Below are positions 4,774 to 58,400 of a stretch of 64,000 nt of DNA, one piece after another. The notes below the pieces were generated by a model. That model worked only from the letters and a program-made list of their open reading frames with translations, searched no databases and was not told where the DNA came from. Each line of letters begins with the position of its first letter. Positions within the stretch are counted from its first letter, which is position 1. The stretch spans positions 248,001-312,000 of the forward strand of contig JANBPU010000002.1 in the NCBI GenBank assembly GCA_027575805.1. Reading direction: 5' to 3'. This DNA comes from Mycoemilia scoparia. Taxonomy: Eukaryota; Kickxellomycota; Kickxellomycetes; Kickxellales; Kickxellaceae. The translations under genes were made by a program, and so were the position numbers.

Positions 4774-6864
4774 ATGTCAGATAAGTTAAAAGTAGCAGAG
4801 TTTTATAGCGGTATAGGTAAAGCATTGATATTATCTGGGTACATGTGATTTGAGATTCGAAGGTGATTGTGGTTATTATATACACTGACATCTGTTCGTT
4901 TATATCTTCCCTTGTTTTTTTTTTCAAGGCGGAATGGTATGAATGGATTTTAGGCTAACGGGTATCAGAACCCACAAAAAGATTATTGCTGCCACAGTTA
5001 AAGTTTATATGAACACATCTATAGCACTATGCATTGAGATCAGCAGGAATTGAGAGCGATGTCCTAGCCGCCTTTGACATAAATGATATAGCGAACATAG
5101 TTTACAGGCATAATTTTCCAGATGTTAAAATCAGGCAGGCAAGTATAATGTTTGTACCGAATAGTGTTGCTTTGTCTCCCCATTGGTGAGTGTATTAAAA
5201 TAATATTTGATGTTTGATCAATTAGCGAAATATCGAGGCGATGCCACAATCTTTTTTTGATGCCTTGAAAGCAGACATGTGGACGATGTCACCACCATGC
5301 CAACCAGTAAGAACCATCAATAATTAGTTTTAATAATGGTGTTGAGTTCCTGTGGTCTTACTTGTAAATACATCACCACAGTACACGCGCCAAGGGAAGC
5401 AAATGGGTTCAGACGATCCTCGTGCCAAAAGCTTTCTGTTTCTTATCGATGGGCTAGCCAAACTAGCTGTAAAGCCCAAATATCTTTTAATGGAGAACGT
5501 GGCAGGATTTGAAGTAAGACATAGCTATGAAGAAAGCAAGGTACTAAACATTGCTCACGTAGATTTAAAAATCAAGTTGATACATTTCTTGCTTTATGTA
5601 GAAATCAAGTACGAGAAACATTTTAGTAAATCAGATAGCAAAACTTGGGTATTCGTTTGAAGAATACATTCTAAATCCGATACAGATTGGGTATCCAAAT
5701 TCTCGCACTAGATATTATTTTTTGGTAAGTGCATTTATATAAGGTTAGAGAGATGCCATCTACTCACTTTTAATGAAAAATTAAACGACCAGCTTTATTT
5801 AATTATATAGGCAAAGCTCAAGAATGGTCCCCAAAGCCAAGATCATGTTGCTTCGGATGATTTGTATACTAACCCAGCACCAAAATTTAAATATGTCATT
5901 CCCGGTGTCAATATGGACGCACCGGAAATTGGAGAAAGCGATGAAGTGCCCAATTTTGAAAAGAGCGTATGGAATGACAGCCATGTGCGGTCTATCAGCG
6001 AGTTTATGGAAAGTGATCTTGACGTGAGCAAGTCCAACAGTGACAAAAAGCCATGGGGAGACTATTCTATTGATTCAAAGGCAAGTACTGAATCTGAACT
6101 TTTGCTTTTCATTTACAATAATGGCTTGTAGATGAATGATGATATTGAAGCTATTAGTCATACCTATAAAAACTCCTGGATTGTTATACTATGTTGTAGC
6201 TCCTAGAAAAGCGTGGATGGGTGTTTGGTAAGTTCAATATTGACTACAATCGTAATGAATATAATACATTATATAATATTTTTACTTCGTCGATTTGTCT
6301 GGCTAATATATACTCGCATGAAAATGGCATAGATGTTGTCGGTCCAGAGTCCAAACGCTCCTGCTGCTTCACAAAAAGTTATTCCAAGTATGCAGAAGGA
6401 ACAGGCAAGTAAATATGGATCAATATTTTTGAAGGGCTACTAATTCTTACTAGTAGGCCAGTTTTATCATAAATATTGGCCCGTCTATATCACCATTGAT
6501 AAATGCTTTGTCATGAGAAGTACACATTTAACCCTTCAAAAATAATATCCCGCATGCGAGCATACTTTTGCAGCGCTTTAATACCTTTTTCTGTCTCTCA
6601 GAAATATTAATTTTGCATTTTTTCTAATGACATCTTCAAATAGGATCTGTTTTGCAAATGGAAGGCAAGATTGAGCCTGGTGCTCAGACAATAACAAATA
6701 CGAGATACTTCACAGAGAGAGAGGTGGCTAACTTGATGGGATTTCCAGCGGATTTTCAATTCCCAAGCAATGTTTCTTTAGCTCAAAGATACAAGCTGTT
6801 AGGAAACAGTCTCAACGTATCAGTTGTTGCCAAGCTAATGGCATACATGGTGGGACGAATGTAG
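4774..6864 (+). CDS. TRDMT1: DNMT2-family tRNA (cytosine-5) methyltransferase, 10 exons
   Basis: Exons 4774-4816, 4929-4936, 5025-5138, 5226-5306, 5382-5513, 5602-5724, 5811-6080, 6200-6227, 6333-6404 and 6644-6864 give 363 aa with every phase consistent. DNMT2 methylates C38 of tRNAs such as tRNA-Asp using SAM. Visible motifs are YSGIGGMHYAL (SAM site), MSPPCQPYTRQGKQ (catalytic Cys loop), MENVAGFE (motif VI), the DNMT2-specific SCCFTKSY, and a C-terminal [13 protein letters not shown]...LLGNSLNV. Exon 2 is an 8-nt microexon encoding part of GGM. Introns 3, 7 and 9 start with GCAAGT instead of GT. A MITE-like element sits in intron 9. In S. pombe the homologue is pmt1. The protein is probably active, since all catalytic motifs are intact. 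Confidence 0.93.
6413..6555 (+). mobile_element. MITE-like element copy 1 (subfamily II), inside DNMT2 intron 9
   Basis: Starts ATATGGATC..TTTTTGAAGGGCT and ends AACCCTTCAAAAATAAT..CCCG. The interior (ACTAGTAGGCCAG, CCATTGATAAATG) matches the copy at 17164. It occupies over half of the 239-bp intron. Confidence 0.75.
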
Positions 6865-7290
6865 CAACTTTTTTCTTCATAGTAGAAAACGGTTCATATC
6901 TAATATCATTATCAAAGATTTTATTAAAGTCGATATATAAATATAAACATCAAAGAGAAATGGAAAAGGACAAATATAGTATAATCATATATTTGAGTTT
7001 CAAATTTAATACATACATGGTTTCTAAAATAACATGTTCTTCTCTTATTTTTAATTCGGTCCCTTATAAACATCCTCCTGAATGATGCGTAGAACCAAAT
7101 ATATTTTAATTTTGAGTAACCTTGAATGATAGCAAATAAGTCGCAGAAATATCTATGCTATAAATGAACTATTATGGATGAGATATCATGGATAACTGTG
7201 CTAGATGGGCACACATACAGTGTTTAAAACAAAAGGCTTGTAAAACTTAATGTGAGGTGAATATCGATGCTGTGACTACTTTATATTAAA
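6865..7290. other. Intergenic, between convergent DNMT2 and F-box-like genes
   Basis: AT-rich spacer between two 3' ends. No gene seen. Confidence 0.5.
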
Positions 7291-10200
7291 TCATTCTTTA
7301 TTTGCAGCTTTCTGTTGGCGCCTCGCCTTTTTACGCTCCAGCTTGCTAATGATAAGCGATTTTAGTCCAGCTGAGAGATCCATCATCTTGTATTTTTGAC
7401 AAAACTGGTTTGCAAGCAGCTCAGGATCATCATGCTCTGCAACACGCAGAATCTGTCTTCCAAACTCCTGTGTTTCGACACTCAATTCCAGCAGCGTCTT
7501 GTTTTTGTGTTGCCTTGGCTGTTTGGAAGACCCGGATGGTGTTTGGTTCTGGCTGCTTGCATTGCTGGTCTCTAGGAGATGGCTCGCTGTAGGCAGTTTT
7601 GGTGTGGGGACATGCTCCGCTGGCAGGCTGTTGCGCATGGGCTCTTCAGCGGCAGCAGTTGTCGTAGTGGGTGCTTTTTCACGCTGTTTATCGCTACGAT
7701 TGGACAGGTTGGGGAAAATAGGTGTGTTGAGTAGCCTGCTGTTGGCGGAGTTGGTAACTCCAAGGCCATTGTTGCTACTACTACCATGCGAAAAAAGCTC
7801 CCTTTGAGGTGATAATACAGGATCCATGTCTCCTGGTGTAATTGGCGACATAGTCTCAACAGATTCTCTTCTATAAATCTCCCCTCCATTAAAATTTCCA
7901 TTGCCAGCAGCAACTGTATCGGCTGCAGCTTCATATTGAGCCGAGGATGTGCCAGGCAATGAGATTGGTGGTACATTGTTTTGAGAGTGAGATTGTATAG
8001 TGGAGGCAATGGTTGGAGAAGTAATGTCAGGTATGGAGTCAAATATACCACTGTCTCTATTTGGACGTTCATTATTGCTTTGGTTCCTAGGGCGTGGCTG
8101 GGGTTGGTTATTAAATGCTATGGGCTGTGAGCGAGGGGATGAGGCTGAGACACCTGGCGATGGATCAATGAGGACTGCTTGTCCACTTTGGAATGGTCTT
8201 GGGGAGTTGTCGCGATATCCAACACTTGCACGGCTAAGTGGCCGCTCAAATGGGTTGTTGCTGCTACTACCGAGATTTCTCCTTTGTGCTTCATAGTCTC
8301 TGACAGCATCTTCATGGCTGTCAGTAATGTAAGACGATTGTACTCTTGGTGGTGTATTAACAAATGCACCAGGGAACTTCTGCGCAGGTGTGCCTTGATT
8401 TGCAAATCCATCTGAAGGCACCTCATGAGAGCTATCGTTTTGTATTGACTCTGGTTTCTGGCCAGCGCTATCATCTTGGTTGAGTGGAGGTTGAGACAGA
8501 GGCTCTTTCCCTTTTTGCAAAGTACTAAAGGTGTTGGTTGGACTGCTATTAGCAGCGGGTTGGCTTGGAACTATAGGTTGTTGCTGTTCTTCAATTGCAG
8601 CCTCAGGGGATGTTGTAGCTGCATTATGTTGATCAATGGGGGGCTCTGATAGATTCTTCTGGTCCACTTTGTCATCGTTTGTTTCTTTGGTAATATCGCG
8701 GACATAGCTTTCTTCAATTTCTTTGGTATTCTCGATGGGACGAGCTGATGCCCCATTGCCAACTGAACTCGATGGTATTGAGCCAGGACTTTTAGGTGCC
8801 GGGTCATCCATTTTCCCGGGAGGAGGCAGACCTTGACTTGGGTGTGCGGTATCTTCTAACTGGGCCTCAGGCTCGGTATGTAGTGGCTCTTGCTGAGAAT
8901 CCAGAGCGTATACCTTCTCTCCAGTATGGTTTAATGGGATTGCAGATTGAGATAAACTACCTGAGTGTTCCTGAAATCCACCATTTTCCAGTTGTCCCGG
9001 TGATGGATTTGAGTGTCCATTCGTTTGCTGTGCAGCTGGAGGAGAATCTGATGCTTGAATCGATCTCTCTTGCTGATCCACAATCGATACGGCATCTTGT
9101 ACATGTTCGTTAGTGGGCTTAGGGAATGATGTGATCGGAACATCATTTCCCCCTTGCTCTACAGAAGTTGGGAAGACACCAGAATCGTCGCTAGAAATAT
9201 CTTGAGGATCATCAGAATGTTGTGTATCTTGATCAGTACTTGGGGCCTCATTCTGGATTTCTCTTGATGCATCATTATTTCCTAGTTCATCACTAGTTAG
9301 CTTGGAATCCATGTCCACTGCTGTGGTTTGCTGCTGTGGTGGGTATGTAGATGGCAAAGTATCTTTATGCTCTGGTGCACCAACTGGGCTGAGGGTTTCT
9401 TGCGGTATAGGCACTGGTTCTTGAATCGAGAACTCTTCACCGGCTTCAGGCTGTTGCTGTGCTTCAATATGCATTTTATCTGATAGAGCTTGATCAGGCA
9501 GCCCGTTTTCACCATAAATGACCTGATCCACCCCCATCTTGGTGTCATCAATTTGGTCCAACTGTTGGCTGAAGTTAGTCTGCTCAGTCGCTTTATTTAC
9601 TGTAGTTTCTACTGAATCGAGCTTTTGGGATTCTTTAGTGTTATTTTCAGCCTGAATAGGTACCCGGTTTGAAGGCTCCTGATCTTTTTCCTCCACGATT
9701 TGTGATACATTGGGATGTTCAGCTGCTGGATCTCCTTCACTAGCAGCAATAGGATTTTCGGTTATTTGTAAAAGGGATTCTACAGCTTCAGCATTAAGTC
9801 CTCTAGATTCGGCATTTTCATTATTCTCAGCACTGTTGTTGTCTTCAGCCTTTATATTATCGATAGCAATTATTGGAGATGGCTCAGGCGGTTGAGACTG
9901 CTGCTGAGTAGAGGTGATATCTATTCCTGGTTCCAGATTATTCTGGTATTCTTCTTTAGACTTTAAAATATCATATCCAGTAATTGGGCGCTGAACATTA
10001 TCACTGCTCTCTCCATGGTTCTCTCCAACTGCAAGTGAGCTGGCAGTCCGCTTTCTACCACCACCTAACCCTCTTTCCCCAGATGGAGTATGTGAGTGAT
10101 GCCGACGAGGAGAGATGGTCTTGAAAAAATCGATCCATTTCTGTGTGTGTCTACGGCTCCCATGGTGCTGTGATGCAGTCATGGGACGAGTAGGCGGATC

Positions 10201-14794: not shown

Positions 14795-17717
14795 ATCTTT
14801 TTCTTGGTTCTAGTTCAGCATGGGTTAATAAATCCTTTGGCGAGTATACTTAAAAATACAAAGTTTGGTCAATAGTGAGAAAGAAAAATGCAAACAAACA
14901 AAAACAAGGAACCCCGATGTCAGCAGCCAATGTGCTTCCACCTTGTGCTTGATTGAAAAGTGTCAGTTATACAGAGTGTGCTGTGCAAGACAATTTATAC
15001 TCAAATAGCAGGAATCAGCGGCTTTTTATTATTATCCAACAAAAATAAAGCAACAGTATGGCATTTACGTCTTTCAGCCTCTCTAATCCCCCACTTTCTT
15101 CATTTCTGCAAGGCATGGCGAATATGGCATTATCACCTGCATCATATTTCTTTTTGGTGTCTCTGTTTGGCGGCATATGATACTTTTCCAAGTCCATAAA
15201 CTCAACTGCTCCATAAGGCATCCAGACTCGCATTTCAGCTTGAAAGTGTTGAAGTGCAAATAGAGATCTCAAACTTTAGTTCACATACGCTATTAGCAGA
15301 GTTGCTGATATTACGGGAGCAAAGCTAACCCTGGGGCTCTTCACTACTATAGTTGGCTACAAAGTATAGCAAACCGAGTATTTGTATCGATGGTGTTTTT
15401 TGGTGCATTCTGACTAGTTTATTGGCTTATCTCTGAAAGCAACAATACACCAGAAGTTTGGGATCTTTTCCACGATGGTGATTTGGCCTACATACATGAC
15501 TAAACAAGACAAAAGATATCATAAAGAAACAGTCTAGTGTTATCTAACAGCTCTGAAAAAACTGGATGAGTTTGACAGTAGCGGTCCACACATAATCCAT
15601 AAGCCACACACTTCATGCTGTTATTGGAGAGATTATTCTGGTACACTTTTAGAGGAAACCTTCCTACATTTAAAGATGCGATTAAAAGAATTTTGGATAA
15701 CGAATGGCTTGGCCTAGTCTTTATAGCTAGTCTGTAGATTGCGGGCAATGACGAGATTTAATGCCTTGCCCCTTCGAAAGGCAATGCTGATGAAGAGAAC
15801 AATAAAGTGTAGAAGTGGTTTGCCTGGCGTTTAGATGTGTCAGTGCATTCATACTAAACGCACTGCTAGGAAAATCCCAAGAACAAGTCTCCAACGACCT
15901 TTGCATATGAGAGATTAGCTTCATAGATGGGCACTGAGATCATTGTCACCATTATCTACGAGGAGGTTTGCTTCTACACCAGAGTCCAAAGATTTTGGCA
16001 AACTGTATCACTAATGTTGCGACCAATTGACCTACTTGGTAAATCTAATATCAAGGGGAAAACATCCGTCTGCAGATCTGCAATAACTATGACACATCTT
16101 GCCAACATGTAAACTACTCAAGGGAAGTGGAACATAACAAAAAGATGGGTTGAACATAGTCTAAGGAATGCACCCCACCTTTCTAAAAGTATGGACTGTG
16201 CACAGGGCTTTGTGGCAGCGAAGTACACTCATGGTAAGCTGTATTGAAATATGAACAAGATTGATCATTATTCAACCAGCTAGTGTCGGACACATGGGAT
16301 ATGACAAGCAATGCACTATGAAGAAGATCAGCGCATGGCCCTTGATGGACTTAGCAAGAATGGCTAACTGTATTCCCAAAACTTTGGGTTTTCTAAAAAT
16401 AGGGGTTCACTTTTTGCTCAAATTAAAACATTATTGTAGCATAGACCGAGATAGTTAATGACATCTCACTGCTGCTCTTCCCTGGCTAAAATTAGAACGC
16501 TAAATAGATCGCTTGCAGTTGGAAAATTGAAATGTATGAATTTCTTTTCAATGGATCGTTGCCAGTCAATGCACACCACTTGTGTTGTATTTTGGTGTTG
16601 TGGAGTTTCATTGCCCTTTAACTGAAAAGCAGTATCTCCAGTGGTCCTTGTAGAGGATAGTAAACTACCAGTTAGGCACGCACTTTGATCCCAAGGGCAA
16701 GTGCGTACTCTGCCGGTAGTTTCCTGTATTCTTTTGGAGTTCCTTTCTGCCTATGGTCTGTGGCGAAACTGACATCCAGAGCCCCATACCCTAAAACCAT
16801 TGTAGTCTGTAGCAGGAGATCTTCAGTCCTACGATTGATTTATTTTTCAAGTGTACAGCACATAGTGAAAAGGCTCATTATCAACTGATGTTCTGCCATG
16901 TTAATATAAACCAAGGGCTAAAATGCTTTAGAGAATGGCGCTGCGGTTGGTGTTTAACAAAAACATACACCATTTTGACGCTACACACCCAGAGATTTTT
17001 GGGCCTAAAGAGGAAATTTTTTGATCAGCTCGTATGGCTGTCCAAAAACGGAAGCTGATGTTACTGGGACCCATCAGCCAAAAACGAGTTGATGTTGTAT
17101 AGGCATGGGTGGAGCTTTTACTTGTAAAAGCCTGAGAATTGCAGCACATACACGCCTGTCCATGCGGATCATTCTTTTTGAAGGACTGATTTTTGCTAGC
17201 AGGCCAGCTTTGTCATGCATATTGGTCAGCCTATACTACCATTGATAAATGTAGTCTGCTTTAGCCCTTCAAAAATAATCACACATGTGTTTGTGCATGT
17301 ATTGTGTGGATGGACATGGCCGAAAACAATACCCAACTGGCGGATTTAGATATATAAACACAGCTGTGGTCCATAATCCGTCTTCAGACCCTCCTTCCAT
17401 ATTACCAAAGATAAATTCACGACTTACAAAGCTGGGTTCCCCCAGTCTGTTACTTTTAATTTTGTGGCTCCGCTTTGTATCATTTATTTTAGTCTCTTTA
17501 CTGCTTGGCAAACAGCCAAATCCAAATAAGGGTTCATTTTTCCACCTACATACAAACATGCACATACATATCGATGCAAGTACCAAGAAGACATAGTATA
17601 TCTGTAGATTTAAGATTCGTCTCAAGCACTCAACCGCCTGTTTTCGCATCTCTTGTAATTATATACATATATCCGTATCACATTACCACAAAGACATAGT
17701 CGATATACTTACATTCC
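14795..17717. other. Gene-poor region of 2.9 kb
   Basis: No supported gene; short frames on both strands break quickly. Contains one MITE-like copy (17164-17286) and a weak match to repeat family B near 15610-15670. The stretch 16900-17160 has short inverted segments and may be an eroded transposable element, but I cannot identify it. The last 430 bp must hold the promoter of the Clp-like gene. Confidence 0.5.
17164..17286 (+). mobile_element. MITE-like element copy 2 (subfamily II)
   Basis: TTTTTGAAGGACT at the left and GCCCTTCAAAAATAAT at the right form the terminal inverted repeat. The interior (CTAGCAGGCCAG, CCATTGATAAATG) matches copy 1. Confidence 0.75.
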
Positions 17718-20138
17718 ATGTTTACCAATAACCTTCAATCCAGCATATATCGTCTTCAAGACGACTTTTTAAATACCACAGAGCAGGCCAGGCGGAAGGC
17801 TCGGGAATCTGGGTCACAATATATGACAATATACCACATCCTCAATGCGATGTGGCATCACCCAGACCAATACTTGGTGTCTGTAGTAATGGAAGCAAAA
17901 GGTGACTGCCAGCAGTTCATCGACAGAGTTGACGATACAATTGAGCAGTCATTTCAAAAATCATTAATTCTGCAACCACTAAAAGCCCTGAATAGATTAA
18001 AGCGGCATTTGTCTCCACAGTCCTATCCCGAACAACTAAATGAAGATACTTTTAATGGACCAGTATTCGACAAAACGTGCCTGGATATTTTCAACAAGAT
18101 TATCAGCCATGGCTACTATGGAGAGATCCACATAAACAGTGAGGTCTTTCTTTGGGAACTAGTTCAAGACAAAAAACTCGACCGAATTCTAAAAGGCTGT
18201 GGAGCCACTGCCGAATCTATGCGGTCAGCAATTAGAAACTACACCGATAATCCCTGGCTCAGAACTTACATGGTGTCTACTATAATAGACAGTGGTGAAA
18301 GCACGTTCGATGGCGTTGGGAGAATGGACAGATCCACAGGTGCCGATGACAAGAGCCAGTACATAACCAATTTATCAAGAAGCATTTCTCGTAACGAAGT
18401 TGCTCAAGTAATAGGTCGTGATTTGGAAATACAGACAGTGATGACGATGATACTATCGCCAGAAAAAAAGAGTCTATTGATTGTAGGACCCCAGGGTACA
18501 GGAAAGAGCTCAATAATCAGAGGTGTCGCTCACCACTTCTACGGAAAAAATAAGACGCACAGGATAAGTCTGCAAGCAAGCATCAGCTCTGATAGATTCT
18601 CAACACGCTCATTATTATACACCAGGAAGGGTTCTCCCGATCCACCAAAAAGAACATCCTTTACGCTGCTAAATATGAGACACCAGTCACATCCTAGCTC
18701 TAGCGAACCCATGATACCACAGATATATCATCTACATCTTCGAAAGATGCTTTCTCGCATCTGGACTACTGACACATTTATAAAGAAGCTAAAGGCCCTG
18801 GCCCAGCATGCAATGGCTCGAAATGCTGTACTCTGGATAGAAGATTTTAATCTGGTACTAAGCCGCACTTCCACAACAAAGCTTGCAGCCATGCGCGAGT
18901 ATCTGAAGCCGCTAATGATACTTGGAAAACTTCGGTGCATTGGCACCTTAACCCTGTCTGAGTATACCGAATTAATAGCAGATGACCCTTTTTTAATACA
19001 CACATTTGTCACTGTACCGGTCCCCGAGATGCTCTCAGATGATGCCGAAAAAGTCCTCTATGTAGCCCGCGATCAATTGGAAGCAAAATATGGTATACTA
19101 ATCAAGGATGAAGCATTAAGGGCAGCCATCGATCTAAGTGAGCACTATGCAAAGAAAACTGCCTTACCGGGCCGAGCCTGGCTGCTGTTGGAAAATACAT
19201 GTGCCCGGTTACATGACCAGCTCTGTCTTGGGTTCCTGCGTCTTCAATGGCTTGAAAGTCGCATGCTATATCTGGCGGTCGGAAACGACCCAAGCTCGCC
19301 GCTCAAATCCATCGACCCCGTTCAACATAAGGAGCTGCTTGATGAATTCTGTTTATACCAGAGGTGGGAGATTATCAATAAGCCTCTCATTGGTAAAATC
19401 AAAGAGGTTTCACAGTTAATGGAAAAGGACCGCTCGTCAAAAAGTATCGCGGAAACCAGCAGCGGGACTAGTGCATCTGGCACAACAATACCATCAGAAA
19501 CCACAACGCCAACGGCCGTCAGATTTTTCAATAGAATCGAGAATGATTGGGTAGACATGTCAACTAAGGACATGGGCAGCTCATGTAGCGCTAGTACAGC
19601 CAGCCAGCTCCCCATAATCTGGGTTGATAGCACCAGTACTGAAAGCAACAGGTACAGTATGGGCTCATATCAAAGCACGTCAGTATCTGAATGGACACAG
19701 AGGACTGCAGAGCGTCTCGAATTCTTTAAAAGCTCTCCCTCTTTCTCTATACTATCAGAGTCCCTAACTCAACAGATATCCAAAAGCGTCAAATTTACGC
19801 ACTCGGCTGCGATGGGTCAATCGCCACATTTCCCAACAACCCATGCGCCAATATTGCCCAACACAAGCAGATATACAAGTGACTTTAGAAAAAGTACTGT
19901 AGCATCATCTCCATATGAAATACTCAATCCTATTGATACTGTTGCCACTGATGGCTGTGACATGAAAAAAGTCGACAGCAAGGCTATTGAGCAATTGATA
20001 TACCAAAAGGAAGGGCCAACACTCATTAACGATGAATACCCTGATTATAAGGCACATACCAAAATTATCGAACATATGCCTGAACCCGAGCAACCACCAT
20101 TACCACCAGCATTCCATGATTACAATCGATGCTATTAG
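17718..20138 (+). CDS. Degenerate Clp/Hsp104-like AAA protein, single ring
   Basis: Single exon, 806 aa. Residues about 15-90 resemble a Clp N-domain (ARRKARESGSQYMTIYHIL). A first AAA module follows: Walker A GPQGTGKSS at 257-265, then VLWIEDFNLVL near 371 where ClpB/Hsp104 has LFIDEIHTVL, then LKPLMILGKLRCIGTLTLSEY and PDKA-like LPGRAWLLLENTCARL, all collinear with Hsp104 nucleotide domain 1. The Walker B Asp-Glu order is changed to Glu-Asp, and the arginine-finger ERRF segment reads LIHTF. There is no second AAA ring; a Ser/Thr-rich, probably disordered tail of about 250 residues replaces it. It most likely binds ATP without hydrolysing it and may act as an adaptor or regulator. Family membership is confident; function is inference. 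Confidence 0.8.
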   Translation: MFTNNLQSSIYRLQDDFLNTTEQARRKARESGSQYMTIYHILNAMWHHPDQYLVSVVMEAKGDCQQFIDRVDDTIEQSFQKSLILQPLKALNRLKRHLSPQSYPEQLNEDTFNGPVFDKTCLDIFNKIISHGYYGEIHINSEVFLWELVQDKKLDRILKGCGATAESMRSAIRNYTDNPWLRTYMVSTIIDSGESTFDGVGRMDRSTGADDKSQYITNLSRSISRNEVAQVIGRDLEIQTVMTMILSPEKKSLLIVGPQGTGKSSIIRGVAHHFYGKNKTHRISLQASISSDRFSTRSLLYTRKGSPDPPKRTSFTLLNMRHQSHPSSSEPMIPQIYHLHLRKMLSRIWTTDTFIKKLKALAQHAMARNAVLWIEDFNLVLSRTSTTKLAAMREYLKPLMILGKLRCIGTLTLSEYTELIADDPFLIHTFVTVPVPEMLSDDAEKVLYVARDQLEAKYGILIKDEALRAAIDLSEHYAKKTALPGRAWLLLENTCARLHDQLCLGFLRLQWLESRMLYLAVGNDPSSPLKSIDPVQHKELLDEFCLYQRWEIINKPLIGKIKEVSQLMEKDRSSKSIAETSSGTSASGTTIPSETTTPTAVRFFNRIENDWVDMSTKDMGSSCSASTASQLPIIWVDSTSTESNRYSMGSYQSTSVSEWTQRTAERLEFFKSSPSFSILSESLTQQISKSVKFTHSAAMGQSPHFPTTHAPILPNTSRYTSDFRKSTVASSPYEILNPIDTVATDGCDMKKVDSKAIEQLIYQKEGPTLINDEYPDYKAHTKIIEHMPEPEQPPLPPAFHDYNRCY

Positions 20139-20324: not shown

Positions 20325-20430
20325 CATTTGGGCGATAACTTTTGAAGGGTACCTTTTGGTAGCAAACAATTATAAGGGCAATCACAGCCAAATGGGTGTC
20401 CAGTTTTACTAGTAAACTTTCACCCTATAG
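20325..20430 (-). mobile_element. MITE-like element copy 3 (subfamily I, reverse)
   Basis: CTTTTGAAGGGTACCTTTTGG on the left; interior CAGCCAAATGGGTGTCCAG and TTTACTAGTAAAC read as the reverse complement of the copies at 22949 and 50990. The right end is eroded (TTTCACCCTATAG). It lies 187 bp past the Clp-like stop codon. Confidence 0.7.
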
Positions 20431-20483: not shown

Positions 20484-20606
20484 ATATGGGTAGTTATTTT
20501 TGAAGGGTTGACCATTTGCTAATAGGCTGTGATCACGCATTTGGCTGTAGTTTCCCCTTTAATCGTTGGCCACCAAAAGTCACCCTTCAAAAATAATCAC
20601 CCATAT
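20484..20606 (+). mobile_element. MITE-like element copy 4 (subfamily I variant)
   Basis: The best-preserved ends: ATATGGGTAGTTATTTTTGA on the left mirrors TTCAAAAATAATCACCCATA on the right. The interior GACCATTTGCTAATAGGC and GTGATCACGCATTTGGCTG defines a variant shared with copy 5. Confidence 0.85.
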
Positions 20607-22322: not shown

Positions 22323-22570
22323 TTATTTTTAACACGCATTCCACGAAAGAAAGTTAAATGGTATTGTTTTTGGATATAGCAAACCAATTTATTGATACAT
22401 TCCGTCACAAAGATTGGGCTAGATGGTGATCTTCAGAACAATCATGATAAGTCCTAAACAAATTTATATTGAAGTTTCTCGACATCTTAAACTGTATCAG
22501 AAAAGCAATTAAAATCGAGAGCCAAACCTTTATTACAAAAAAGCAACCACGATACTAAAATAAACAAATA

Positions 22571-22680
22571 GATCATAATTTTTGAAGGGTGACTTTTGGT
22601 GGCCACTGATTATAGGGTCAATCCCAGCCAAATGCATGATCACAGTCTATTAGCAAATGGTCACCCTTCAAAAATAACTA
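22571..22680 (-). mobile_element. MITE-like element copy 5 (subfamily I variant, reverse)
   Basis: AATTTTTGAAGGGTGAC on the left and TCACCCTTCAAAAATAACT on the right. The interior TGATCACAGTCTATTAGC is the reverse complement of the copy 4 variant. Located 249 bp past the OMA1 stop. Confidence 0.8.
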
Positions 22681-22948
22681 TTTAATAGTTAACTGTAAGC
22701 GTAGATTAATAATAAGCTCTAGGTGCTAAATAGCCTATAGATTTTTAATTATAACTATTTTTGTGCCAAAAGCTTGGCCACAGCAATTCAAAATGTTAAA
22801 AGAAACACTTTGTTAAGAGTTTATTAATAAACTAAATATATGGGTAGGGTGTGGGTATAAGTAAATATATATATATATATTAATGAAAATTTGTTATTAT
22901 TGTTTTTTGTAATTTTACTAATGTTTGTGATTGTATAAATAAAATATT

Positions 22949-23069
22949 ATATGGGCAATAATTTTTGAAGGGTGAATTTTTACTAGTAAAACTGGACACT
23001 CATTTGGCTATGATTGTGTCTATAATCATTGACCACCAAAAGACACACTTCAAAAATTATTGCCCATGT
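22949..23069 (+). mobile_element. MITE-like element copy 6 (subfamily I)
   Basis: ATATGGGCAATAATTTTTGA on the left mirrors TTCAAAAATTATTGCCCATG on the right. Interior TTTTACTAGTAAAACTGG and TATAATCATTGACCACC. Confidence 0.85.
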
Positions 23070-24998: not shown

Positions 24999-25119
24999 AT
25001 ATGGGACATTATTTTTAAAGGATGAAAGTTTACTAGTAAAACTGAACACGAATTTCGCTGTGATTGCCCCTATAGTCATTGGTCACCAAAATTTACCCTT
25101 CAAAGATTATGATCCATAT
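24999..25119 (+). mobile_element. MITE-like element copy 7 (subfamily I)
   Basis: ATATGGGACATTATTTTTAA on the left; TACCCTTCAAAGATTATG..CCATAT on the right. Interior GTTTACTAGTAAAACTGAAC. It ends 73 bp downstream of the PPR gene stop (that gene is on the minus strand). Confidence 0.8.
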
Positions 25120-28110: not shown

Positions 28111-28594
28111 TAATTTGGGTGTGTGGATAGAGGGATACTTGTCAAGAACTTCCCCTAGAGTCTGCTGTATGTTATTATTGATATAGTGCCCTATGCTTTG
28201 TCCTATATCATTTTTTGCTGAATTTCATAAAGTATTGATAGCATAACAATTTTTGGGAGGCTATAATTTATATAGATCAACAATCAAAAAAATGCCAATT
28301 TTTATTATGGGAAAATGTAATTTTTACTAAATAATTCATTTTGGCTTAAGTTTACTTTAGGACCTTTATCCTATAATTTTACCTTTTTCTCTCTCCATTT
28401 TGGTACAGTTTTGAGAGACAAAACTTCTGATGCATGCAAAGTCCACTTGGGTAATACGTGCAGTGGTAGTGTATTGTTACATGATATTCTTGAGTAACAA
28501 TTGACTCAAGGCGTTTAGGTAAGTACTGATGTCAATACTAATACTATTATGATAACTTAGCAACATTCCTTGTACAAACATTTGTAACTATGCT

Positions 28595-28620
28595 ATATGG
28601 GTAATAATTTTAGTCACCCT
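28595..28620. mobile_element. Truncated MITE-like stub (copy 8)
   Basis: ATATGGGTAATAATTTT is followed directly by AGTCACCCT, as if the two terminal repeats were joined by internal deletion. Confidence 0.5.
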
Positions 28621-29439
28621 TTTATCTATTTTTTTTGAAACAAAGCCATTTAGGTACATTTTGCCTACTATAATATAGGAGGGGGGCAGTTGTGGCAGAA
28701 AGAGCAACATCGCCACCGCCATAGCTTTCAAAATAAAATTGATAATTTACATTAAAAAAGGATAGTGTGGTGGCTTTCACTTTCTCAATAGTAAAATTCG
28801 TGAAAAGCAAGACAGGTAGGTAGGTCACTACTGCAAGAATCTGCATCGATATAAATTCTGGCAAAACAACCACTGGCATTGCCACTTGAGAGTTGCAAGT
28901 TTATAGTAGAAGCACACCACACCACGCATCATTATGAACAATAACTTGCAAATTCAAAGACCGTAGCCTTGTTAGTAAATGGATTCTTCTTCATTTATTC
29001 TACCTTACTGCTTTCGGTACTGGGCTCATGTCTGTCGTCACAATGCATGAGCCTGTACCATTTTGTATATATTGGAAAGGGCAAAGGTATACACCACTTT
29101 TATGGAGCTGGCATCTTTGAACTTGCATTTCAAAATAAACGGAAGATCTTTACAAAGATGCAAAAGGAATAGCAACAAGAGTAAAAGTGGTTAAAATTGG
29201 TTTGTGAAAAGGCATTCGATTATACCACAGCACTAAGCCAAAAATGGTGTGAAACCTCCAAAAGAAATATTAAAGGGAAACGACTGCTAAGGACGTCCAT
29301 TTACCACTGAATTAAGGCTAAAAAGTTGCCAAAAAACAACATTACTTAGCCACCTATGCATAATGCAGGGAGAACCGTATTGCATATTGCAAGGTGTGTC
29401 TAAATGGAGCAGACTACTGGTATCCACATACATTCACTA

Positions 29440-29545
29440 CAAATCAACCCATGACTGGTACATACATTTTAGCTGGAATCTGCCAGATTATTGAATACTG
29501 TCCAAGATAAATGCTATTCTGGTACAAATGCCATTGAAGGGGGAG
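29440..29545 (+). repeat. Repeat family B, copy 1
   Basis: Shares ATTTTAGCT, CTGCCAGA, ATTCTGGTACA and GAAGG in the same order and spacing with 53588-53692; about 70% alike by eye. Nature unknown. Confidence 0.55.
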
Positions 29546-30227
29546 ACTCGGCCATATAGCTGACTGTACACACGCTTGAAAATATAATGTTTTAGAGAAT
29601 GTATTGGTAGTGAGTATTTATTTGACTGCTAAGTAATAAAGCAAATAAAAAATCCGTGTATATACGGTCAGAATCCACAAGATCTTGGACAAAAATGGAC
29701 CCCAGAGGTTGCATATGAATTGCCTCATGGCTGGGCCAGAACCTGAGGGCCCACATAAGCCTATCATACATTCAATCTCTAGTGGATTTCGACTATATAG
29801 TGGCAGCGTGATGAATAAAGTAGGTATGTAAGGGTAGATGGAGGCAGATATTAGGAAAGGGAATTACAAAAGTAAATATATAGTAGGTATAGGTAAACAT
29901 AGAAACTGGGGAAGAGAGCGCATGGAGTAGCAGCTGATGCTAGCGCAGCAGCTGTGGGGAGGGAGATAGAGCATTGTAAAGCCAGTACAGAGATTTACAA
30001 CGAGAAGATGAAAGGAGCAAACTGTTTATAGGAATGACCAATGATGCAATGCTTTAAGGTTGTGAGTGTGAATAGTGTTTTATGCCAAGATGTAGTTTTA
30101 GTGTCGGTTGGATTAATAGTAATTTAGCATGGCTGTGGCCACAACGAAAGAGTTTTGGGTTCCAAAAAACCCAAGAGGCGCTCGGAGGCTTGGGTTCTCT
30201 GTGGCATGGATCATGTATAGGCCATCA

Positions 30228-31049
30228 TTAGCGGTTGTGGGCATTAAGCGAGGCATAGAATGGATCCTGAGGAGGCTCCTTGTAGCCAGCGCCAGGGACA
30301 TACGGATAAGTAAAGTCATCAATCTCATAGCGGTTCTTGAGCTTGTGGCGTCTGTACATAAAGAAGGCAACAGCAATAAGAAGCAGGACACCAGCACTGA
30401 CACACGAAGCAATGATAGCAGTGCGGGTGTTGCTGGATTTCTTGGAGTCCTTGCCGTCCTTTGAACCATCGTTGTTGTTGTTGCCACCATCGCTGTCTCC
30501 AGAGGTCTCGCTCTCGGTGCTGCTGTGGGTATCTTGTGGGTCGGTGGGGCCAGAGGTAGGGTCCAGGGTGGGAGAATCTGTTTTTTGTGTAGGGGTCGAC
30601 GTAGGCTTGGTCTTTGTGTGGTCGGATTTTGTGTTCTTGTCAGAGGTTGGTTCATCAGTTGGTTCGTCTGTGGGCTTGTCGCTAGTTTTATCGTCAGAGG
30701 TTGGTTCATCAGTGGGCTCGTCTGTGGACTTGTCTGTGGATTTGTCTTTGCTGGTAGTGTCCTTATCGGTGGACGTAGGGGAGCTCGAGCTTTTGTCCTT
30801 GGAGGATGTTGTCTTTTTGTCGCTGGAGGATGTGGGGCTGTCCGAATCACCGCCACTGTCTTCATCCTTGCCTTTCCCGCCGCCAACGTCATCCAGCCCA
30901 AGGAGCCGGCGAACAAAGTCGTCGCGCCGGACCAAGTTGCCCTTGGCGACCTGATTGGAAGGTGTGTTTTCGGCAGTGGCGGGCATTAATGCCAATGGGC
31001 TGAGTACCAGCAGCCATAATGCCAGTGTAGGCAGCGTGAAGGGCTTCAT
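30228..31049 (-). CDS. Secreted single-pass cell-surface protein, Ser/Thr/Asp-rich
   Basis: 273 aa from ATG at 31049; the upstream in-frame extension starts before a clear signal peptide (PFTLPTLALWLLVLSPLALM, cleavage after ATA), so the internal ATG is preferred. The ectodomain is low-complexity: Ser/Thr/Lys/Asp-rich with an imperfect STDEPTDEPTS repeat around residues 100-150, and would be heavily O-glycosylated. One membrane helix (AIIASCVSAGVLLLIAVAFF) is followed by a short basic then Tyr/Pro-rich tail (MYRRHKLKNRYEIDDFTYPY). The architecture resembles fungal Mid2/Wsc-type wall sensors, though without a WSC cysteine domain. Divergent to the sirtuin gene across a 1.4-kb spacer. A sensor role is inference. 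Confidence 0.75.
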   Translation of the reverse strand: MKPFTLPTLALWLLVLSPLALMPATAENTPSNQVAKGNLVRRDDFVRRLLGLDDVGGGKGKDEDSGGDSDSPTSSSDKKTTSSKDKSSSSPTSTDKDTTSKDKSTDKSTDEPTDEPTSDDKTSDKPTDEPTDEPTSDKNTKSDHTKTKPTSTPTQKTDSPTLDPTSGPTDPQDTHSSTESETSGDSDGGNNNNDGSKDGKDSKKSSNTRTAIIASCVSAGVLLLIAVAFFMYRRHKLKNRYEIDDFTYPYVPGAGYKEPPQDPFYASLNAHNR

Positions 31050-32472
31050 TTTGGAAAAGTCTATATAGGCAGAAATAGAAGGGAGCAAATGAGCAAAGCA
31101 AAATGAGAAAAAATATATAGGGCCAGGCAGAGTGGGTTAAAGAAGGAAAGGAGGTTAGGCTAAGAGAGGAAAAAACAAAGAGCAAGGATCAACATCAAGT
31201 AGATGAAAAGAGAGGCATGACCTGGTTGCGGCTGCCAAGTTGATTGCATTGGCACGGTATCAATGACACGGAGGCGCACACTGCTGACTCGTTTTTTGGG
31301 TTGGCCTTGTGTGGCCGCGATGCGCACAGTAACACGCACAGCTCAAGAGGAATAGCCCCTGCTGCCTTTGCGGATCTTCTTTCCGTTCTCTCTAGACATT
31401 GGCGCTTTGCTTTGCTCCCACTCCTCCATATGAGTTACTGCCGCGCCCTCTCCTTCGGCCCAGTCCACGTATGTGCGCTCCTTCTCTGGCTTCCAACAAA
31501 AAGTCATTGCTGCCACCACTGTTACTGTCCCCCTCCCGCTCTGGTTCCAATCCCTGCCACACTGGCTCCCCCTAGAGCCATAAATTCCAGTTTTCTTCCA
31601 GCCCACCGCCATTTCCTGTATCGTGTTTCTTGAAATAGATTGCTCAACCTCAACAGTAGCAGCGCCCATTTATCTGTTTTCATGTTGATACTCACTGGAA
31701 ACCAATTTCGATATGCGATCACCTCAATGTTTATTGGTGCCGAAAACTCGTTCCAACTTGGCTCTCTGGAACCCCGTTCGTCAAACCACCGCCTGAAGCT
31801 GCTCCTCGCTAATGGTGCGGTGTCATTGCTGTTATCTTGAGCCACAGAAAATGCTATTTTGAGGGTGTTTTTAAATAAAATCTGGTTGGTGTTCAGGTTT
31901 CAACACCTGCTTCTGATGCACCTTTTTTCCACAGAGCGCTTTCCTGACTGGCCCGCTGCTTTGCGTCCAAACTTGCTGAGGGCCCTCTGGGCTTTGTCTC
32001 TTGGGCCTTTATGCAGGTTTTTAGGTGTTCTGGTGGTGCAGGCCTTCAGCCCACAAAAGCCGATGGATGCTTGATCATGCCTGCGCATTCGAGTCAGTGC
32101 TGTAGCCCCACATGCATACAACCCGTGGTTTATAATCCAAAGCCCAGTTTCGCCAGCAGCATTATTATTTTCCAGGCCGCAAGCCTCCTTCTCCCCAAAA
32201 GCCCAAACAAGCTCAAGCTTTTTTCCAACAATCATTACATCATATTTCATCTCTCATAATCTGATCTTTTGATCGAGATCTCTGATCAGACAAGAATGCA
32301 TGTCTATACCTTGACTGCTTGATGCTTGATTTTTAACCGGCGTGACTTTCTATCTCCTATTTGCGTTTCGGGTCTTTGTGTTTTAGACCAGCTATCCCAC
32401 TAAATTTGTCTTGTCCCTTACCTCTTCCTTGCTTTCCGTATAGTTGTATTTAGATTAGTCTGTGCCCTCCCA
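31050..32472. other. Divergent intergenic region, surface protein and sirtuin
   Basis: GC-richer than other spacers and open on both strands in short frames (minus 31343-32250 most notably), but those frames lack ATG starts or recognisable domains. Probably two promoters with long leaders; an unannotated small gene cannot be excluded. Confidence 0.4.
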
Positions 32473-34736: not shown

Positions 34737-35308
34737 CCTATTTTATGAAGATGGTACTTCATATGGGAGAAAAAATTTAAAGGGTGAGTATGCTTGATAA
34801 TCAACTGCGATTGCGCCTATAATCATTGCCAGACACCAAAAGGTTCCCTTCAAAAATTATTACCCATATATGGCCAATGTAATTAAATGACAGAGCAACA
34901 TTTTGTATTGTGGACAACTATTATTCCAACATTTTTAATATTTATAGCCAGCATTTATTGTAATTTCTTATCTTCCTTTTTGTCTCTCGATTGCATTTTC
35001 ATATTACACATAAACAAATCATGTCAATAGAGATTTTAATTTATGCGATTCCTTTGAGGCGTTTAAAAGGGATAAAAGTATATTTGGGCTGATAAAAATA
35101 GACAAAACAATTACGAAGAAATTACATTAGCCTGCCAATTATATCCACACATGTCTGACAATGCATATTGGCGGGTATTATTATAACAACGTGACATTGG
35201 CTGAAAAGGCGAGAGGAGTGGGTATTGAAAGCCTTGAATCAACCATATTATCCTTGTTATTTCTAACACAGCAACACAGTCTAGATATCTACTAGCTAAC
35301 TGGGCTTT
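34737..35308. other. Intergenic, between convergent sirtuin and PEX11
   Basis: Holds MITE-like copy 9 and AT-rich 3' flanks of two convergent genes. No gene seen. Confidence 0.6.
34761..34869 (+). mobile_element. MITE-like element copy 9 (subfamily I, eroded)
   Basis: ATATGGGAGAAAAAATTTAA then AGGGTGA on the left; TTCAAAAATTATTACCCATA on the right. Interior CTATAATCATTGCC and ACACCAAAAGG retained; the ACTAGT palindrome is deleted. Confidence 0.75.
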
Positions 35309-45772: not shown

Positions 45773-46412
45773 TGATCATCGTCTTTATTTTGACACTTTT
45801 GTGACCAAATGTGCGGTCGATAATTTATCTAATAATTTTGCTGTGTTACTCTTTCATTTAAATATTACTAACTATGTACACCCTATAATTTGGCAAGATT
45901 TCACTAGTCAACGAATCTATCTATGGAAGGCAGAAATGGATCCCTCAGGTTTTGACCCAAACATCAGCCATTCCATATGCAGCTTCTGGGGACCAATTTT
46001 ACCCAAGCCCTTGTAAACTTTGGCCATTTGGTTAAGAAATTGTCAGTGTGGGCGGATTAAGTGGTGGAAGCCTGATTGCATGTTATGCCTATGATTTTCC
46101 AAGTAGGCGAAATAATAGCATTTTTATTGGTAAAAATAGTCGCTTTAAAATGCTTTAGTAACAAGGAGGAGGGAAGGTTGATTGCTGGTAACAATGCACA
46201 TCAAATTAAGCCAATTTTGTAATAAGGCATTGGACTCAGATTTAAAGGAAAGCGAGTAATAGCCATAATCTAGTTTCGTCTGACGCTATTGTTTGGTTGT
46301 GGTGACTACAGGGCTTTCGCTTTTGCTCAGCATTGTCGTAATCTTTTCGATTTTTTGCTTTCTTCAACTACACTTTACTGCATATCGGTACATAGCCACT
46401 ATTAAATAAACC
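45773..46412. other. Intergenic, decarboxylase to prohibitin
   Basis: No gene or repeat recognised. Right end is the prohibitin promoter. Confidence 0.5.
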
Positions 46413-50842: not shown

Positions 50843-51404
50843 ACCCAATAATCTCACAAGCATGATATAAATCCATTTCCTACCAACACTGTATTTGAAT
50901 TTTTCACAAGACTTTTATTGTTTTTTTTGCTACCCCTTAAACACAATGCGTTTAAAATACAGTTGAGTACAATTCCAAAGTGATCAAACATATGGGCAAT
51001 AATTTTTGAAGAGTGAAAGTTTACTAGTAAAACTGGACATCCATTTAGCTGTGATTTCCCCTATAATCACTGGTCCCCAAAATTCACCCTTCAAAAATTA
51101 TGATCCATATGGTTGGCATCACAATGTTACAGATGACAAACACCTCCAATGTTGTGATTCCATCTGGCGATCGTGATAAATAGAACGCCACGTGACCAAG
51201 GCGTGTATGTTATATAATACTTGGATATCAGTCGTCGCACAAATGATGATGATGATGATGATGATGGATCCTGGGCCCAATGCTCCATAATCTTCTCCAT
51301 TCCCTATGAAAAGGCTCCCACATGTACTGTGTGTTGCAAGATTAATGTTACCTCTTTTTTACAAAGAAACCTTTTTGATCATATAAATTTTGCTCTATAT
51401 AACT
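50843..51404. other. Intergenic, VPS27 to questin-oxidase-like gene
   Basis: Contains MITE-like copy 10 and a GAT microsatellite (51244-51267). Promoter of the downstream gene is expected here. Confidence 0.6.
50990..51110 (+). mobile_element. MITE-like element copy 10 (subfamily I)
   Basis: ATATGGGCAATAATTTTTGA at the left and TTCAAAAATTATGATCCATA at the right. Interior GTTTACTAGTAAAACTGGAC, CATTTAGCTGTGATT and CTATAATCACTGG. It lies 148 bp past the VPS27 stop. Confidence 0.85.
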
Positions 51405-53246: not shown

Positions 53247-53309
53247 CATTCTCCCACCATCAGCCATTAAATTCCAACTTTTTAAAGTTTATTCGCCTAG
53301 CTAGATGAC

Positions 53310-53427
53310 ATTTGGATCACAATTTTTGAAAGGTAAATTTTGGTGACAATGATTATAGACGCAATCAAAGCCAAATGGATGTCCAGTTTTACTAGTAAAC
53401 ATATACCTTTCAAAATTGTCTCCAATA
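53310..53427 (-). mobile_element. MITE-like element copy 11 (subfamily I, reverse)
   Basis: AATTTTTGAAAGGTAAATTT at the left and ACCTTTCAAAATTG at the right. Interior AGCCAAATGGATGTCCAG and TTTTACTAGTAAAC read in reverse. It begins 63 bp past the preceding stop. Confidence 0.8.
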
Positions 53428-53587
53428 TAACAGCCTTAATGTTACCTTTGCTTGTTTCACTAAATTATTTTCTATATGTATGAACTGCTTATTAAACCCA
53501 CCAACTTTTAGCAGGCATTCTCTCAGCGCCTAATCTAAATGGCAAGTTCTCCATCAAAAGGAAACAGACAAGTGTGCTCATACATAC

Positions 53588-53692
53588 CCTGCAAATCAGC
53601 CCATAGCCCATATATTTTAGCTAGAGCCTGGCAGACTATTGGCTATTATCCAGGGTACTCTTCTGGTACACCTTCAAAGGAGATTCTACCAA
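53588..53692 (+). repeat. Repeat family B, copy 2
   Basis: Collinear with 29440-29545 (ATTTTAGCT, CTGGCAGA, CTTCTGGTACA, AAAGG). A weaker match lies at about 15610-15670. Confidence 0.55.
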
Positions 53693-53943
53693 ATGATTGT
53701 TAATTTTGTATCGTTAATTCGTTCAACCCAACATACTCAATCAAGCATCTCCCCATAATCTTGTTCTTTTTGATAAAACGCCGGTTATGTAAACAACCAT
53801 TGAGGACAACAATCACCATTCTTTTCATCACATTCCTTTCGTCAACTCTATTTTTATAACTTTTATATAAGGTCTTATTTAGCGCAAAGTTAATCAGACA
53901 GAAATGGGGTGAGCTTAATAACAACTATTGCCAAACAGATCAA

Positions 53944-55106: not shown

Positions 55107-55417
55107 TGCCCCCGAATATTAATTTGTCTATTCCTTTCTATAAAATGAAGGAATATCAGTGAAACGTCATATCCGACTATCCGTTTTGGATCCAACTTTA
55201 AATAAGAACAACAATATCAAATTGATGATGTTAAAAATGTTAATTCTAAAATGGCCACAAGACAAAGCAAGTTGCATTTGATATTTAAACCTGAATTATC
55301 ATAAATATTAGCGAAAATTACTAGTGATTCAAATGTATCCATTCCCAATGATAAAGGCACACGAAAGTGTACTCGGGATTAGTATAAATTAGACCCAAAA
55401 AAAGCCACACTGAGAGG
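55107..55417. other. Intergenic, between convergent reductase and PAN3
   Basis: AT-rich 3' flanks; no gene or repeat. Confidence 0.6.
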
Positions 55418-58400
55418 TTATTTCGATCTACGAGAAGCGTTGATCAAGTCGACATATGCGCTCTCAACACATCTCTTAAGGTCTTGGTATGATACTATGA
55501 GACAAGAGTTTTCATCGCGGGATGTCAACATAATCCTCTCAGAGCATCCAGCATCCAACTGCAAAGAAAATACAGTAAATTAAGCTTAATATAGACGCTA
55601 TATAAACCTCAAGTTCATTCAATCTAAAGACAAACCTACCTTGTTGAGGTTTGTAAATACATGAGCGACATCAATGATAGGCGCACCATTCTCGTTAACT
55701 TGATGGAATACATAGTCGCGGAATAATTTGATCAAATAGCAGTCACCAGTTTCTGCCCATTTGGTGTCATTTTCAAGCCTAATGCAGAAATTTAAAGGGT
55801 TAAGATAAGCCCATCTATGGAGAACTCGCATATTGATAATTGTGTATGTATAAGATCGAAAAACATTCTTACTCTGGCCTCTCCAATATAAAATTTAGTT
55901 TACACATCAGCCTAATGAATCGGCCATTCTCTAGTTCCTTGCCCAGCTCGGTCATGACATGGTCCGAATATCTATATTTCACGATTATTTAAAAAGGCGT
56001 GATAATGGATATTGTATTGAGTTAGTCATAATATATTAGGTATATAGGGGAAAGAGCTCTTACGTTTGAAGGTTCTCAGAGTAATCTGCAATATGCGAAG
56101 CCATTAGACTGACTATATGGTTGATTGTAAGGCCCTGCCCATTAGAATTCAAAAGTGCTACACCCCATATATACAGGTCATCGGAACCACTTTTTATCAT
56201 TTCTAAGGCCTCTCTGCCTTCAATGGCATTTTCCATGTTATTGACTCCCTTAAGCAGAAGAATTAGCTTTCCAAGATCAACGATATCCTGAATCTATAAA
56301 ATGTACCAATTTTTGTATAAATTGTTTCCCTATGAACTACTGGTTCAAATGCCAATATTTCCGGATATTTCGCAAATAGTCCTTTACCTGTAGCCTATGT
56401 GTCTCTGCCACATTGGGGCCATCTATATCAAATATGCCAACGTTTGACAATAGAATCCTACAATCACACCAATTAAGCAAAATTATTATCATGGAATTAA
56501 ACAAGCTGTGTTATAATGAATAACTGGTGACATTTGGCAACACTTGCTTGCTTTTACCGCTGATTAGCACATTTTGGGCATTAAGACAGCGATATGCCAG
56601 ATTGCTTGAGTGTATTCTGCGGAGAGCCAGGACTATCGGGACAACGACCAGCCACAAAAAGTCGTCCCTCTCAACAAAAGAGCCGTACAGAGATGATGTC
56701 TTTTCAGAAAACATGGTGCTCACGCTGACTGCAAGTGGATAGAAATCGTAAACCACGACCATGGCTATATACCAATTATAAATAATGGCGTTGAATGAAA
56801 GTTAATATACACACACACATTGGGTAGTTGATGCAAAAGTAGAATGCAACGTCAGCTTACATTGATCGTAAAATGCTCTGGTGGTAAATGCCTTTTGGAC
56901 ACTGATTAGGTTAGGGTGCCTCACTGCTCTCCACACATTTATCATGGCAAGATTATCTTTTCCAATATCCATATAATCTACAGCAAAATAAAGATGCAGT
57001 TAGCCACCGCGACCTTTAGTTACCTATAGCCCCATATGGGTAGTTATTTTTGAAAGACTAAATGCAGATAGTGCATAATGAGGCATTGGTCAATGAAAAT
57101 ATAGGCCTTGCCTTATGCAGGTTGAAACTGACATACTAGTAGAACTTAGCCCTTCAAAAATAATCACTCATATTAGTCACAATATGAACTATCAGTGCGG
57201 GTGCCTACCTTTAATCCTGTATAGACAGTATGTCTTTCCATCAACAATAGACACGGCTTTATACACTGCAGCACTATACGTCCCAGATGGAAGAGATATG
57301 ATATGATTGCTTCTCAGGGTTGAAACAGAATGGAATGTATCCAATTTGTTTGGCAAATCAGGTTCTGGAATCCATGTTGCACAAAAAAGGAAATAAGACG
57401 CAGGTTTAGCTCAAATTCACATGATCAATAAATAAATTCTACAAACAAATTTAACCCAATTTCGTTTTTATGATATAATTATAGCAAAAGCTCACCTTGT
57501 ATAGAAATCATCGCCATGGCCTTCTTGGAATTCTCATTTCTAATCTCGAAATCCGCAGAAAACGACATTATGTGTCTCTGGTATGTGGGAAGCTTGGCCT
57601 TGATTGGGGGTGGAACATACGGCTATACAATTTTCGGAAAGAATTTCATGTATAATCCTGCAGCAAATAATTGACCACTTTCATTTGTTGGGCTTTGTGT
57701 ATGTGTATGTGTATGTGTGTATGGCAAAGTCTTACATTTTTTGCCACCATACTATCAGCAGGCCTGGGGTCCAGGTTAAGCATCTTTGGGCTGTATGGCA
57801 GCTGGGGCATCGAAAATGGATCTGCTCTTGCTGGAGGCTACATTTCACAAGAAGCACGTTGTAGTCTGGCGTGTGGTATGTGATGTCTCGAAAAATGCTG
57901 CCGCTGCCAAGAGAGTTTTTTCATAGTTGCATTGGCAAAAATGTGCATATACATATACCTCAACAAATGGATTAATAGCTCCTTGTGCGTCAGAGCCGTA
58001 ATTGAAGGATAGTGATGTCATCTTTTGTTCCAGTGACCTACTTAATCCATTTATTATTATTATTATTATTAGCAGAACAATTCATCAATAAACTATACTG
58101 ACTGCATTATTCAAGAAGATACTTTTGAAAGTGACCAAAGTTGTTTGGTATCTCTTTTACCTTGGAGAGCCTGGCTGTGACTTTGGCACTATAGAGATAA
58201 ACAATATGGTATATAATATAGTGTTTAGCTTGATGAAACCTTGATGGGAAATTGAAGGCACATTGCTGTCTCCACACTGCCTCAGGTATTGCGAATACTC
58301 ACTAGCAAATAAAGGCTTGTCCTTGCTTGAAGACTTGCTCAATTGAATTATTCTCGACCCTGGCTGGAATGCAGGGGAGGCGGCGCTCAGCTTTTTCACT

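Follow-up and report, generated by a model that had tools for sequence, protein, structure and literature searches.

Family A in the window and across the genome

The window, a 64,000-nt stretch of the Mycoemilia scoparia genome (positions 248001-312000 of contig C112, in an assembly of 21.16 Mb and 466 contigs), contains genes for MGM1-like dynamin, PPR, PEX11, Sir2, and questin oxidase-like proteins, and among these genes lie copies of a short repeat with inverted ends that we refer to as family A. The original prediction for this DNA described twelve copies of a repeat resembling miniature inverted-repeat transposable elements (MITEs). An abundant repeat family is indeed present: BLAST searches with two window copies, of the 20484 and 50989 types, identified 11 family A places in the window, while the twelfth predicted copy was not matched. 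Type I, to which the 20484 copy belongs, is represented at 20488-20602 (plus strand, ATAT at both flanks) and at 22570-22683 (minus strand, flanks AAAT and AATA). Type II, that of the 50989 copy, is found on the plus strand at 22953-23065 (flanks ATAT and ATGT), 25003-25115, and 50994-51106 (both with ATAT at both flanks) and on the minus strand at 20326-20424, where one outer end is missing, and at 53314-53423, where the copy has partly decayed. The sequence TTTACTAGTAAA is present in the 50989 copy and absent from the 20484 copy. The type III group comprises the 6413 copy, a long type that spans 6417-6551 (flanks ATAT and GCAT), and the copy at 17166-17284 (flanks ATGC and ATGT), with the 57034 copy, a type III element at 57038-57169 with ATAT at both flanks, as their relative. 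A degraded copy with damage at its left end lies at 34774-34865 on the plus strand. The prediction had distinguished two subfamilies by their interiors, and both interiors are real, the first corresponding to types I and II and the second to the type III group.

The element proper runs from GG to CC and mostly measures 112-115 bp, with some copies of 131-135 bp. Its inverted ends of ~20 bp follow the pattern GG....T.ATTTTTGAAGG, and over the outer 22 bp the terminal inverted repeats of 142 distinct copies had a median identity of 82%. Shared inverted ends had been predicted correctly, but their proposed extension outward to ATATGGG has to be shortened: ATAT is the target duplication described below, and the element starts at GG. 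Family A is too short for a transposase coding sequence. In agreement with the prediction that no transposase is encoded here, none of the 9 window proteins scanned matched a transposase.

In the window, the core 14-mer (≤3 mismatches) gave 24 matches against a shuffle mean of 9.8, with none of 100 shuffles reaching 24, and a repeat finder also listed inverted ends for several window copies. Genome-wide searches with the 20484 and 50989 copies, which the prediction had proposed, yielded many further copies. The family A terminal pattern (≤2 mismatches) was detected 5,114 times genome-wide (2,546 + 2,568), compared to 2 matches for the reversed control; counting both ends of each copy, this corresponds to some 2,500 or more copies in 21.16 Mb. 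By arithmetic from the end counts (2,557 copies of ~118 bp), family A accounts for about 1.4% of this compact fungal genome. Single-copy searches with types I, II, and III returned 835, 1,482, and 323 first-look candidates, respectively, and 40 candidates were scored in each search. On other contigs, four further type III copies were 98-100% identical to the window type III copy. One match of the copy at 57038-57169, on contig C223, is 100% identical over 142 bp. Judged from the sequences, such near-identical copies on other contigs suggest recent movement.

The tips of the element vary even where the interior does not. Twenty loci selected for a common inner block have the tips GAGTGATT (9 loci), GGATCATA, GGGTAGTT, and GGGTGATT (2 each), GGGCAATA (1), and others (4), and several of these tips were also found with other inner blocks. 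The simplest reading of these mosaic ends is exchange within the common ATTTTTGAAGG block.

Outside the window, the genes around family A copies encode enolase, mitochondrial carriers, and other proteins. A long open reading frame (ORF; 200-codon search) was in reach of 67 of 116 copies, and none of the 67 lay inside one, compared to ~30 expected. Of the same copies, 32 were located ≤500 bp from a stop (~9 at random, uncorrected for noncoding space) and 11 ≤500 bp from a start (~6.5 at random). Much of this proximity to ORF ends reflects exclusion from genes. Such positions would also be compatible with a conserved gene for a structured RNA, or with a family of regulatory hairpins, that had spread by duplication and not by transposition, and the single-stranded DNA of four copies did fold more favorably than shuffled versions (z of -2.3 to -7.7). 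The hairpin folding, however, is explained by the ends themselves, because they are inverted repeats. Moreover, no Rfam family reached threshold in the window, and a conserved RNA gene, named in the prediction as a possible refutation, did not turn up there; one inner block occurs with different tips; and the copies have the direct repeats and element-free paralogous sites described below. We consider an RNA or hairpin origin very improbable.

Target sites and neighboring copies

Flanking family A is a direct repeat, most often ATAT and at most 4 bp long, and this outermost ATAT lies outside the element proper. The arrangement ATAT-GG...CC-ATAT was present in 94 of 116 copies with both ends, and the exceptions were sometimes alike on both sides. 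Among the 142 distinct copies, 26 of which came from the 20 loci fetched by the type III right-end pattern, ATAT was found on both sides in 105 (111 if one base of slack in end placement is allowed), on one side in 22, and on neither side in 15. Five of these 15 matched exactly (ATCT, AGTT, AAAT, AAAT, and ACAT), a number reached by 2 of 20,000 shuffles. Target-site duplications, which the original prediction had recommended looking for, were thus found, both as ATAT and among the exceptions. A fifth flanking base agreed in just 22 of the 142 copies, so the repeat stops short of a fifth base.

Two features of the exceptions weaken the case for a 4-bp duplication. Of the 15 copies lacking ATAT altogether, the other 10 have mismatched flanks, some with ends placed one base off and others decayed. 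In addition, all matched exceptions start with A and end with T, and a 2-bp duplication bounded by a T and an A of the element itself is therefore indistinguishable from one of 4 bp. In that case family A could be a Tc1/mariner MITE (Stowaway-like) whose true duplication is TA, whose element is TGG...CCA, and whose preference for A-TA-T is strong. The central TA within ATAT in 105 of 142 copies and the Tc1-like transposases present in this genome would agree with this, and the 2-bp and 4-bp readings predict the same empty site provided that A and T stand outermost. We nevertheless find it improbable, since the five matched exceptions are duplications without a central TA, and the 10 resident DDE_3 elements inspected have ends quite different from those of family A.

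Element-free paralogous sites were seen for three insertions inside other repeats. In each, once the flanks were joined through a single set of the four bases, they matched the empty site over the junction, with 0-2 gap positions. The first, in a Tc1-like element (locus L070), was compared with loci L066, L067, and L069 at 95-97% identity and no gaps, the empty copies having ATCC for ATCT. An insertion in another repeat (L079) was compared with L004, L077, and the window at 79-80% identity, and in a weaker case the L078 insertion, in an apparent relative of the L079 repeat, was compared with L053 and L004 at 78% identity. Family A thus has both a target duplication and an empty site. The repeat at window positions 53534-53699 is common to 7 fetched loci, and its related L004 and L077 copies supply the empty site for the L079 insertion.

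Copies of family A frequently adjoin one another with a single target site between them. Of 29 end-to-end neighbors within 60 bp, 22 were exactly 4 bp apart (21 with ATAT and 1 with ACAT); among the other seven pairs, one belongs to the listed junctions but was read one base off. A stringent pattern for the shared-ATAT junction was detected 158 times genome-wide and 0 times for the reversed control. By arithmetic (931 ATAT in 104 kb, 2,557 copies), random hits on ATAT sites would give ~35 junctions, an expectation that disregards gene avoidance and that rests on a looser pattern for the 2,557 copies than the one behind the 158. In a set of 274 distinct flanks, a filter ignoring tip letters gave 42 that abut another A end and 12 that abut an end of family B, a second repeat described below (54 in all). 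For comparison, flanks of any ATAT in the window and in pieces of contig C1, the elements' own included, abut an A end in 58 of 1,858 cases and a B end in 5 of 1,858. We note that most loci were picked by similarity to window copies and that the abutting and flank shares are not genome-wide estimates.

Arrays with a shared ATAT could also arise through slippage at a single MITE or its duplication, or through joint movement of multimers, instead of by separate insertions. Both kinds of process have been put forward elsewhere, replication slippage for coral CMITE arrays (PMC2872659) and joint movement for pithovirus M1/M2 (PMC10664404). Same-type neighbors were listed here as well, e.g., on contigs C55 and C367. 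The 12 complete neighbor pairs, however, were 64-80% identical and lay in both orientations (6 direct and 6 inverted), while 53 of the 142 copies are matched by another at ≥97% identity in a sample that favors copies like the queries. Since neighbors are dissimilar and lie in both orientations, separate insertions fit better than slippage, and an origin of the arrays by slippage or joint movement is in our judgment unlikely.

The bases beyond the target site were also compared. In flanks outside those abutting elements, C was found just beyond ATAT in 69 of 176 (background ~19%) and CC in 29 of 176 (background ~4.5%). Against a true preference, a harsher filter that tests the tip letters too left C in 20 of 79 and CC in 5 of 79, near background, and some CC flanks look like decayed B ends. 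The preference for CC just outside ATAT is thus tentative and partly owed to neighboring or decayed elements.

Class of family A and the search for an autonomous partner

Family A combines a short (<~600 bp) noncoding sequence, terminal inverted repeats, a target duplication with an empty site, and a very high copy number, all of which bear out its predicted MITE-like character. Very probably, then, it is a noncoding, non-autonomous cut-and-paste DNA transposon that uses a transposase in trans, targets ANNT with a 4-bp duplication, and may build its arrays by self-targeting. A transposase supplied in trans would excise family A, and the element would insert into AT-rich ANNT sites, mostly ATAT, with a 4-bp duplication. 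There may be a mild preference for CC immediately outside ATAT, and the element's own edge offers CC-ATAT-GG, so that new A and B copies would often land in the duplication beside a resident copy. Repeated landing beside residents would produce arrays with one ATAT common to neighbors. Transposase-driven cut-and-paste movement, the sharing of this activity by families A and B, and self-targeting are what we infer from these patterns.

Duplication length also bears on the superfamily. PIF/Harbinger (Tourist-like) elements have a 3-bp TWA duplication and a DDE_Tnp_4 transposase; the flanks of family A are ATAT or ANNT, and no DDE_Tnp_4 match was obtained. Elements of the piggyBac group duplicate TTAA, which was absent among the A flanks inspected. 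Duplications of 4 bp are known from the Sola1, Ginger, Chapaev, and Academ superfamilies.

The search for an autonomous partner weighs against a transposase acting in trans. The original prediction had suggested looking for a full transposon with the same ends, and none was found among the five transposase families searched. DDE_3 gave 15 genome matches, and the 10 whose ends were inspected had TACAGT-like tips in 7 cases, other tips in 3, and A ends in none; the ends were not worked out for matches L061, L070, L071, L074, and L075, nor for the single DDE_1 match. DDE_Tnp_4 (PF13359) gave 0 matches, with a control search positive in 1 genome. The search with piggyBac (PF13843) also gave 0 matches and is uninformative, as its control was likewise without a match. 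Plavaka gave 1 degenerate fragment without A ends. The transposase may be rare, may belong to a family outside the five searched, may lie in unassembled DNA, or may have been lost.

Loci L062-L069 and L072 hold DDE_3 (Tc1-like) elements whose inverted repeats measure ~210-230 bp, 7 of the 9 having TACAGT-like tips, and small A copies lie near several DDE_3 loci. At L073, a DDE_3 element at 895-2850 has its own 29-bp ends and a small A copy on each side; we took these two flanking copies as separate ones.

A larger element was also sought from the ends themselves. Of 256 distinct near-intact A ends from fetched DNA (27 ends were too close to a locus edge), 244 had an opposite end (≤2 mismatches) within 260 bp, compared to 111 of 3,000 random stretches. 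Eight of the rest had a partner at 4 mismatches, and four had none better than 5 (5-6 at best). The repeat is therefore not in general a piece of a larger element, the other finding that the prediction had named as a refutation. Three of the four partnerless ends have a MITE interior, one of these with family B inside, and the fourth, at L051, has an unfamiliar one. This L051 end (~2091-2113) is near-intact and shares ATAT with a neighboring copy, and its interior resembles none of the known MITE types. Half-element patterns of type III gave 78 matches for the left end and 230 for the right, 62 of the 100 listed for the latter being exact. From these 62, 26 without a left-end match were picked by eye and 20 were fetched; all 20 closed 113-132 bp on. 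Of 111 ORFs of ≥170 codons around copies, 81 were scanned, and the 25 families shown out of 62 were housekeeping and Tc1-type domains, the latter from two members included on purpose.

Family B, other window features, and known systems

Family B, a second MITE family, is a repeat of ~130 bp with other ends (GGYCARAKTTCAC... and GGYGARATTTCACTAGTGATC...) and the same GG...CC edges as family A. One window copy lies on the plus strand at 29666-29793 (ends hand-counted), with AC instead of CC at its right edge, and another on the minus strand at 45892-46025, with ATTT at each flank (45888-45891 and 46026-46029). Matched 4-bp duplications were read by eye, after correction of a one-base pattern overshoot, in 6 of 14 B copies (at L073, L004 1580, L023, L024, L039 1786, and window 45892-46025); four of them are ATTT, or AAAT on the complement, and two are ATAT. 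The other 8 lack a matching duplication, some owing to an abutting element. The inner block of family A (GGTGAAAGTTTACTAGTAAAAC) resembles a B end, and the B pattern (≤3 mismatches) picks up many A copies. Outside the window, B copies often abut A copies.

The like duplications and the A-ATAT-B junctions suggest that A and B may share one transposase. Both could further be satellites of a single, as yet undescribed lineage of DNA transposons that duplicates 4-bp ANNT sites, with a transposase favoring sites next to its own ends, mixed arrays sharing single target sites, and tips shuffled by recombination in the ATTTTTGAAGG block; taken as a whole, we hold this proposal to be doubtful.

The window contains further repeats at 28395-28605 and 29428-29555, common to 4 and 2 fetched loci, respectively. 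An 806-amino-acid AAA protein with a weak Clp N-terminal match is encoded at 17718-20138, and its best homologue outside its own contig is 21% identical. The gene at 30228-31088 encodes a repetitive protein rich in Ser, Thr, and Asp, with a hydrophobic segment close to its end (judged by eye), and is overlapped by ORFs on both strands. One window protein was closest to a Spiromyces aspiralis protein (58% identity over 89%), followed by proteins of Coemansia and other Kickxellomycotina, as befits an early-diverging fungus.

A literature search for three end sequences gave no match, in keeping with the prediction that no described family has these ends (Repbase and Dfam were outside its scope), and a search on MITEs in Kickxellomycotina gave no MITE paper among the matches listed. 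Family A offers many insertions and, with them, a natural way to examine whether a transposase inserts preferentially next to its own ends.

The targets of rice Tourist and Stowaway elements, whose duplications are TWA and TA, differ from the ATAT of family A. The two systems are alike in that a sizeable share of copies adjoin others: 54 of 274 distinct flanks for family A and, in a figure that PMC10664404 cites from Jiang and Wessler (2001), 11% of rice MITEs in multimers. Of the 13 MITE families of Mycosphaerella graminicola, the part of PMC4522978 concerned with them gives duplications of 2, 5-6, or 8-9 bp for 12, and these sized families include no 4-bp class, unlike family A. The two systems resemble each other as fungal MITEs, in that families alike in ends and duplication but not in interior are grouped, and in a greater prevalence in gene-rich regions. 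Coral CMITEs likewise form arrays, which the relevant passages of PMC2872659 describe as tandem, composed of highly similar units, and due to slippage, with families linked to piggyBac. Family A neighbors, in contrast, differ from one another, and no piggyBac domain was found here by a search whose control was uninformative.

The closest likeness is to pithovirus M1/M2, MITE-like palindromic noncoding repeats of ~140 nt with no annotated transposase in the account given by PMC10664404. As in family A, adjoining copies have one target site in common. Compared by description only, the pithovirus target is a TA dinucleotide, whereas that of family A is mostly ATAT with 4-bp ANNT exceptions, and the pithovirus arrays take the form (M1-M2)n-M1 in a giant virus, whereas those of family A are mixed pairs in a fungus. 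MITE multimers that share target sites are thus a kind already known, and family A with its mostly-ATAT target appears to be new within the range of these searches.

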